In this document: piece by piece, positions 47,046 through 60,014 of the stretch
Layout: every line of letters starts with the position of its first letter
How positions within the stretch are numbered: position 1 is the stretch's first letter
Assembly: GCA_002683135.1 (NCBI GenBank)
Contig: NYSS01000026.1
Coordinates: 1 to 64,000 of the forward strand
Length of the DNA: 64,000 nucleotides
Direction: 5' to 3'
DNA from: Planctomycetota bacterium
GTDB lineage: Bacteria > Planctomycetota > GCA-002687715
Notes under the pieces: model-generated
Database searches by the model: none
Seen by the model: the letters and a program-made list of their open reading frames with translations, nothing else
What the model was told of the DNA's origin: nothing
Translations under genes and position numbers: made by a program

Positions 47046-47600
47046 TTAGCTGATGCTCGTCGGTGGCGGCTCGGGATCGTCTTCGAGGTTGACGCCCAGG
47101 CCATCTGCGACGCGGTTGACGAAGGCGTAGTAGCTGGCGACTTCGCAGACGTCGAGGATGTCGCGATCCGAGAGGCCTTGGTCGCGCAGGGCCTGAACGT
47201 CTGACTCGCGGACGTCCCACGGGGCGGTCGTCAGCTTGTCGACGTACGCGAGAATGGACGCGCGACGAGCATCGAGCCCGGAGCTTGTCCAGTCAGACTC
47301 GATCCGATCTAAGAGGTCGTCGTCATTGAGCAGGCGGCGCAGACCGCGCCGATGGTGCTCGATTCAGTAACGGCACCGGTTCAGTTGGCTGACGCGTAGG
47401 GCGATCAACTCACGGTCGATCTTGCGGAGGCTCACGGTCCCGCTCATGACAGCCTCGTAGAGGCGGAAGTGGGCGTTCAGCCCCTCCGGGTGAAGGGCGT
47501 GAATTCGGAGGATGTTGTCGACGCGGCCCGTGTCCGGGTCCTCCATGCCGGCGAAGAGCCGGCCCGGGTCGCCTTGAGGTTCGTCGTTGATCCACGCCAT
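47046..47600 (-). CDS. candidate selenoprotein: AhpD-like / peroxidase-related enzyme (TIGR01926-like), in-frame UGA = Sec
   Basis: Reading through TGA (47366..47364) gives ...LIALRVSQLNRCRYUIEHHRRGLRRLLNDDDLLDRIESDWTSSGLDARRASILAYVDKLTTAPWDVRESDVQALRDQGLSDRDILDVCEVASYYAYVNRVADGLGVNLEDDPEPPPTSIS*; same frame, SECIS-like hairpin downstream. Confidence 0.85.
47328..47360 (-). promoter_or_regulatory. bacterial SECIS-like stem-loop
   Basis: GAGCA CCAU CGGCGC[GGUCU]GCGCCG CC UGCUC; 6-bp upper stem, 5-bp lower stem; apical loop begins 19 nt after the UGA. Confidence 0.8.
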
Positions 47601-59174: not shown

Positions 59175-60014
59175 ATGCGTTGCATGGTCATCCTCGTGTG
59201 CCTCCTGATCGTCACGGCGGCGTCGGCCCAGAACCCGGGTGTCCTCGGGGCGGTGCTCGGGAGCGATGGGCGCGACGTGGTGGTGCGCCGGGTGCTCGAT
59301 CGGAGCCCTGCTCGCGTTGCCGGGCTGCGGCCTGGTGACCGGTTGATGATGGTGGGCGAGGACCTCGTCCGTAACCCGCAGGACGCCCGGGCACGGTTGT
59401 ACCGGCTGGCGCCGGGGAGCATGGCTCGGCTGGCTGTGGTCCGCGGCGAGGAACGCCACGTCTTCGACGCGAAGATGACTGATTGGAAGACCGCGTCGTC
59501 GCTCGTGAAGTGGCGGGGCAAGGCGCTCGAAGCGGGAGTTGGGGCTCCCGCCTGGTGGGCTGAGCGTTGGGACCTGCCGGGTGGGGCCCGTGTCCCGCCG
59601 ACCCGGGAGTCCACCAAAGGCAAGGTCGTGTGCCTGTTCGTCTACCAGGCGTTGTGACCGCATTGCGAGAGACGGGGGTTCCCCGTCCACGTTGCGCAGG
59701 AAGCGGATTACCGCGATGACGCCGGGATCGTATTCGTGAACTTGCACGCGGTGGCGGAGGCCCACAATCGGAACACTTTTGATGTCGCGGTGAAGAAGGC
59801 TCGGGCAGCGGGCTCGAAGTCCGCCGTGCTCGAGGATGTCCGGATTGACGGGATGGGGCGTTCGGAGGCCTGGCGCCTTTACCGCATGCGATGGTCGCCG
59901 TGGACCATCGTGATCGGCAAGAAGGGCGAGCTTCTTTACAACGGGAACACGCCGGCGGAGTCGGCGCTTCGGGAAATCCTGCGCAAGGCCCTGGGCCGCA
60001 AGCGGCGCCGCTAG
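59175..60014 (+). CDS. candidate selenoprotein: exported PDZ + thioredoxin-like protein with U-P-H-C active site
   Basis: ORFs 59175..59657 and 59736..60014 are in one frame separated only by TGA 59655..59657; readthrough gives KGKVVCLFVYQALUPHCERRGFPVHVAQEADYRDDAGIVFVNLHAV...RWSPWTIVIGKKGELLYNG; SECIS-like hairpin downstream. Confidence 0.82.
59671..59687 (+). promoter_or_regulatory. bacterial SECIS-like stem-loop
   Basis: GACGGGG[GUU]CCCCGUC, 7-bp stem; apical loop begins 21 nt after the UGA; possible lower stem UGCG(59664..59667)/CGCA(59695..59698). Confidence 0.75.

Follow-up and report, generated by a model that had tools for sequence, protein, structure and literature searches.

A predicted selenoprotein joining a PDZ domain to a thioredoxin fold across an in-frame TGA in a planctomycete

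The locus at positions 59175-60014 raises the question of whether a TGA codon separates two short genes or is decoded as selenocysteine (Sec) within a single one. It lies in the window, the 64,000-nucleotide stretch of contig NYSS01000026.1 that was analysed here, from a Planctomycetota species represented by only one assembly (GCA_002683135.1; 5.07 Mb in 209 contigs, 91% complete, 5.2% estimated contamination). On the plus strand, a frame opens with ATG at 59175 and closes with TAG at 60012-60014, and its sole interruption is the TGA at 59655-59657; from 59658 onward the same frame is open as far as the TAG. This reading of the ORFs bears out a preliminary description of the locus, which had reported one frame split only by TGA. 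Readthrough yields a product of 279 residues that contains U161-P-H-C164, with Cys164 (59664-59666) as the presumptive resolving residue. The gene very probably encodes a selenoprotein with PDZ and thioredoxin-fold (redoxin/TlpA-like) domains in which UGA 59655 is decoded as Sec, and the coding sequence delimited in this way (59175-60014) is matched over its full length by uninterrupted homologues. Use of TGA as a general sense codon was ruled out, as TGA terminates 18 of the 30 longest ORFs in the window.

Continuity of the frame and exchange of Sec and Cys

The gene was found in two further genomes of the 12 in the class, G007 and G008, whose products are 58% (over full length) and 38% identical to the window protein, respectively. 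In both versions the PDZ-thioredoxin frame is uninterrupted, TGC stands in place of the TGA, and the site reads CPSC. Cys homologues in sister taxa had been called for in the preliminary description, and these two carry Cys precisely where it had aligned U with the first Cys of a thioredoxin CxxC motif. A homologue search with the single sequence returned no matches, and a search with an alignment returned only the two known sisters. A family profile built from the gene and the two sister proteins matched PDZ-thioredoxin proteins of other planctomycetes almost end to end, so the frame across the TGA is not a product of chance.

Substitution rates between the window gene and its G007 counterpart were estimated on both sides of the TGA. 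Upstream, dN was 0.43 and dS 1.45; downstream, dN was 0.29 and dS 1.01. The resulting dN/dS ratios (0.30 upstream and approximately 0.29 downstream) are alike, which indicates that the downstream part is constrained like the rest of the gene.

A mechanical ORF finder lists the two halves separately, as would be expected if a PDZ protein terminated at the TGA and a second, small protein began at GTG 59736, the first start codon past the TGA. Such a pair of proteins is very improbable here, since the break would interrupt the thioredoxin domain right at the catalytic residue, the stretch between the TGA and GTG 59736 is conserved, and AlphaFold2 placed both domains in a single confident model. 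The close homologues are fused, single proteins, and not the separate pairs that the preliminary description had envisaged as a challenge to its reading. We take GTG 59736 to be an internal codon and not a gene boundary.

A profile search over 392 genomes of the phylum, after which the loci were re-translated, identified TGA at exactly the same codon in eight other planctomycete genomes and TGC or TGT in the remaining members. Together with the window gene, the nine TGA genes come from eight family-level groups. Seven of the other Sec forms have a UPGC site (G136, G037, G030, G023, G053, G055 and G202, the last with no PDZ domain seen) and one has UHVC (G028). Cys versions occur with CPEC in G211 and G071, and as PDZ-less proteins with CPGC in G066, G054, G353, G377, G321 and G344. 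The UPHC/PHC sequence was found solely in the window protein, all others having (U/C)PGC, CPSC, CPEC or UHVC, and Cys164 is invariant in the family alignment. An unrelated residue at U had been named beforehand as evidence against Sec; at this position, every full-length homologue carries either Cys or an in-frame TGA. More distant thioredoxin-fold matches in G373 and G088, which lack both Cys and Sec at the site, lie beyond the limits of the family as defined here. In G054, the Cys version (L039:940-2007, minus strand) is apparently followed in the same frame by a second, tandem thioredoxin-like domain containing WTRACPFC.

SelA was present in all nine genomes with Sec forms, and also in the Cys-form genomes G007, G008, G071, G054 and G353, so loss of the Sec machinery alone cannot account for the Cys forms. 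G007 evidently uses Sec elsewhere, as it has several genes of another selenoprotein family, NF041199, that contain TGA. A tree of the thioredoxin domain required six changes between Sec and Cys, at least three of which were forced by well-supported branches. Because Sec and Cys versions coexist in close relatives that retain the machinery, the family constitutes a natural experiment on keeping versus dropping selenium. It also adds a well-supported selenoprotein family, whose genes appear broken by the TGA when the standard code is applied to the nine planctomycete genomes concerned.

The downstream hairpin and the selenocysteine machinery

All nine TGA genes have a hairpin at the same place, with a 7-bp stem and a GUU loop 20 nt after the UGA. 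In the window gene, this putative bacterial SECIS element is GACGGGG-GUU-CCCCGUC (59671-59687, plus strand, loop at 59678-59680). In the alignment of the nine Sec genes, 98.4% of cells were paired, every varying pair (four of the seven) showed compensatory changes, and 13 cells were changed on both sides versus a shuffled mean of 3.0. The covariation score was 0.631 versus 0.149 after shuffling and was 0.167 or lower when the partner was slid by 1-3 columns. RNAalifold recovered the same structure unprompted. Eight of the Sec genes form all seven stem pairs, and G136 forms six. The hairpin is degraded in most Cys homologues, with five of seven pairs in G007, three in G008 and zero to six in the other Cys genes, the highest value being that of G211 and G071. 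Conserved Gly-Phe-Pro codons (GGN UUY CCN) partly produce the inner stem by themselves, so only the outer four pairs count as independent evidence.

Stretches of 41-66 nt from the window gene folded at -17 to -26 kcal/mol, and single-sequence folding was weakly significant (z -0.9 to -2.0); the SECIS argument therefore rests on the covariation. When both strands of the window were scanned, the exact geometry of the family (seven Watson-Crick pairs closing a 3-nt loop whose first base is G, 20 nt after the UGA) followed one of 1,554 TGA triplets, while any hairpin of at least seven Watson-Crick pairs fitting the spacing and loop rules followed 17 of the 1,554. The window hairpin fits the published bacterial SECIS model, which specifies a loop of 3-9 nt with G in the first two loop positions, a distance of 16-37 nt from the UGA and a minimum free energy of at most -7.5 kcal/mol (PMC13188914). 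There was no match to the Rfam SECIS families.

Absence of Sec machinery would have weighed against the preliminary description by its own account; the source genome encodes SelA (523 bits) and SelB (332 bits, with its neighbours), and has SelD matches and a tRNA-Sec with anticodon TCA. Contig C184 clusters SelA, SelD and tRNA-Sec. Two SelD matches were obtained, each with an in-frame TGA (motifs GGGUACK and CGGUAAK); they are two different genes, at L009 on contig C12 and L010 on contig C184, and the one on C12 may represent either a second gene or contamination. With these components, SelB carrying Sec-tRNA(UCA) would decode UGA 59655 under the direction of the hairpin at 59671-59687.

The TGA is one base from TGC and TGT, both of the nearest relatives have TGC, and the sequence comes from one assembly only, all of which would be consistent with a recent nonsense mutation or a sequencing or assembly error in a Cys gene. 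This explanation is nonetheless highly improbable, since the identical codon is TGA in eight other genomes, the hairpin has a perfect seven-pair match to the family geometry here and is broken in the Cys sister G007, Sec machinery is present in the genome, and selection is intact downstream of the TGA.

The preliminary description had listed this gene as a probable second selenoprotein, and another candidate is indeed present. A CMD/AhpD-like gene at approximately 47049-47597 on the minus strand (Pfam CMD, 56 bits) has a TGA at 47364-47366 within the motif CRYU, followed by a hairpin, and fits a known CxxU family. From these features it is a probable selenoprotein as well, and may be the first one implied by that description.

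Domain architecture and relation to known families

The readthrough protein begins with a probable Sec-type signal peptide (residues 1-18, 59175-59228), read by eye from its hydrophobic core and an ASA|Q cleavage site; the N-termini of homologues are also hydrophobic. Residues 22-99 (59238-59471) form a PDZ domain of the HtrA/RseP type, which scored 38.4 bits against Pfam PDZ_2 (cut-off 27) and matched the PDZ domains of DegQ, DegS and RseP in Foldseek and profile searches. Its carboxylate loop, GVLGA, follows the pattern hydrophobic-L-G-hydrophobic, and a similar loop occurs in nearly all PDZ-bearing members. The second domain, a thioredoxin fold of the redoxin/TlpA-like type, spans approximately residues 120-275 (59532-59999).

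AlphaFold2, run with a 17-row alignment, returned one confident two-domain model of the readthrough protein (mean pLDDT 92.2, pTM 0.87), with pLDDT mostly above 90 in the PDZ region. The PDZ and thioredoxin domains proposed earlier were thereby recovered by structure prediction. In the model, U161 directly precedes helix 162-178 and Pro242 (59898-59900) directly precedes beta strand 243-247, so that a CxxC-type site opens helix 1 and a Pro precedes the next central strand, as in the thioredoxin fold. The sequence SPWTIVI had been proposed as the cis-Pro loop, and the position of Pro242 agrees with this; [TS]PW is present in most PDZ-bearing members, and the cis state is presumed.

In Foldseek and profile searches, the second domain was nearest to 3EYT (SPOA0173) and 3LOR (Corynebacterium glutamicum), with TMt values of 0.85-0.87 and 0.79-0.81, followed by the structures of DipZ, DsbE and ResA. 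The two structures, together with the plasmid 'redoxin family protein' WP_034053978.1, are the closest relatives of the thioredoxin domain by profile and fold and share a CPxC site, but they contain Cys instead of Sec and are single-domain proteins that lack PDZ. Pfam Redoxin/AhpC-TSA matches were obtained for 16 of 17 family members. The window protein itself matched weakly, at 12.7 bits versus a Redoxin cut-off of 26.6, while singly scanned family members reached up to 40.3. The TlpA/ResA/DsbE reductases resemble the window protein in having an exported thioredoxin fold, and gave weak profile matches across the family; they differ in having Cys and no PDZ domain, and none of the curated cut-offs of their models was reached by the window protein.

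The preliminary description had suggested that a selenoprotein combining PDZ and thioredoxin domains might be undescribed. As a pairing of domains it is on record: NF041199, a Trx7/PDZ selenoprotein family with CxxU, appears in PMC13188914 and PMC9312934, and includes the GOS 'MucD-like' protein (MCX6587993.1). NF041199 is nonetheless a different family, with an N-terminal Thioredoxin_7 domain followed by PDZ domains and a CxxU or UxxU motif, whereas the window protein has PDZ followed by redoxin with UxxC. Membership in NF041199 was rejected, as the window protein scored 25.5 bits against a cut-off of 300 and matched through its PDZ region alone. NF041199 exceeded its cut-off in 11 of 40 sampled Planctomycetota genomes, and most such matches contained TGA. 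Genes of this family are common in the phylum (L056, L058, L060 and others), several contain a pair of TGA codons (UxxU), and three copies in G007 score above the cut-off.

A redoxin family selenoprotein (PF08534, UxxC) is listed in the 2026 prokaryotic selenoprotein catalogue (PMC13188914), and is possibly the 'Prx-like 3' of PMC2398784. It shares with the window protein a redoxin-type thioredoxin fold with UxxC and differs in that its catalogue description mentions no PDZ domain; the thioredoxin part of the window protein is probably akin to it and may belong to that family. No PDZ-redoxin UxxC selenoprotein was found in literature searches or in the catalogue as searched by term (PMC13188914). 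The window gene belongs to a known fold class, with an architecture and family outside every model searched, and is best read as a member of a planctomycete family of PDZ-redoxin proteins with a (U/C)PxC site, described by no family model or literature searched.

Predicted function

Enzymes with a UxxC site use the selenolate to attack a disulfide or a similar oxidised group, and the Cys then resolves the intermediate. Based on its sequence features, we infer that the window protein is exported as one polypeptide consisting of a signal peptide, an HtrA-type PDZ domain and a redoxin/TlpA-type thioredoxin domain with Sec161 as the attacking residue. Outside the cytoplasm, the selenolate would most likely attack disulfides of substrate proteins or other oxidised sulphur, Cys164 would resolve the mixed selenide-sulphide, and a membrane donor of the DsbD type may re-reduce the enzyme; a candidate donor is the protein with a DsbD membrane domain encoded on contig C73 of the source genome. 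An exported disulfide reductase is thus a reasonably likely function, in which export, the reductive direction and the donor are each predicted.

The protein might instead act on exported proteins as an oxidase or isomerase, like DsbA or DsbC. CPHC is the DsbA motif, as the preliminary description had noted in assigning the site to the DsbA type, and exported thioredoxin-fold proteins can work in either direction. That assignment did not stand, since the fold and profiles are redoxin/TlpA/ResA-like, a group composed mostly of reductases; there was no Pfam DSBA match, and no DsbA occurred among the 50 best structural matches. PHC is restricted to the window protein within a family that otherwise has (U/C)PGC, CPSC, CPEC or UHVC, and the low pKa of Sec in UxxC generally favours reduction. 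An oxidase or isomerase is accordingly unlikely.

Within the preferred reading of an exported reductase, the PDZ domain probably selects substrates or partners, which it would capture via a C-terminal or exposed peptide. It is possible, though not probable, that it recognises exported proteins that are damaged or misfolded by their C-termini, in the manner of HtrA proteases, and delivers them to the Sec reductase for redox repair and not to a protease; the family would then be a distinct one of exported selenoenzymes targeted by peptides. The union of an HtrA-like PDZ domain and a Sec reductase suggests that PDZ-guided proteolysis may have a redox counterpart.

The gene neighbourhood was compared over 14 genomes, and no conserved partner was seen. 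An upstream gene for a TPR protein recurs only in G007, and an M20 peptidase gene only in G008. In G007 and G030 (L089 and L095), a repeat-protein gene of a shared family, prenyltransferase-like by eye, lies convergently beside the PDZ-thioredoxin gene, and the same repeat-protein family is also found near it in three other genomes.

A special case of the reductase reading is that the protein reduces an exported methionine sulfoxide reductase as part of oxidative protein repair. A Cys relative of its thioredoxin domain is encoded on a plasmid, within the operon msrA - redoxin - selO - msrB, msrA adjoins the redoxin gene in all plasmid matches listed, and MsrA is encoded in the source genome. 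This role is rather unlikely, because many genomes encode an MsrA at some other place and no conserved neighbour surrounds the window gene or its planctomycete relatives, which also means that no msr gene recurs near the PDZ-thioredoxin genes in the 14 genomes. The operon itself (L104:3493-7121) is located on a conjugative plasmid and can be read as a mobile protein-repair cassette; comparable pairings of redoxin with msrA are found on numerous plasmids from Klebsiella and elsewhere.
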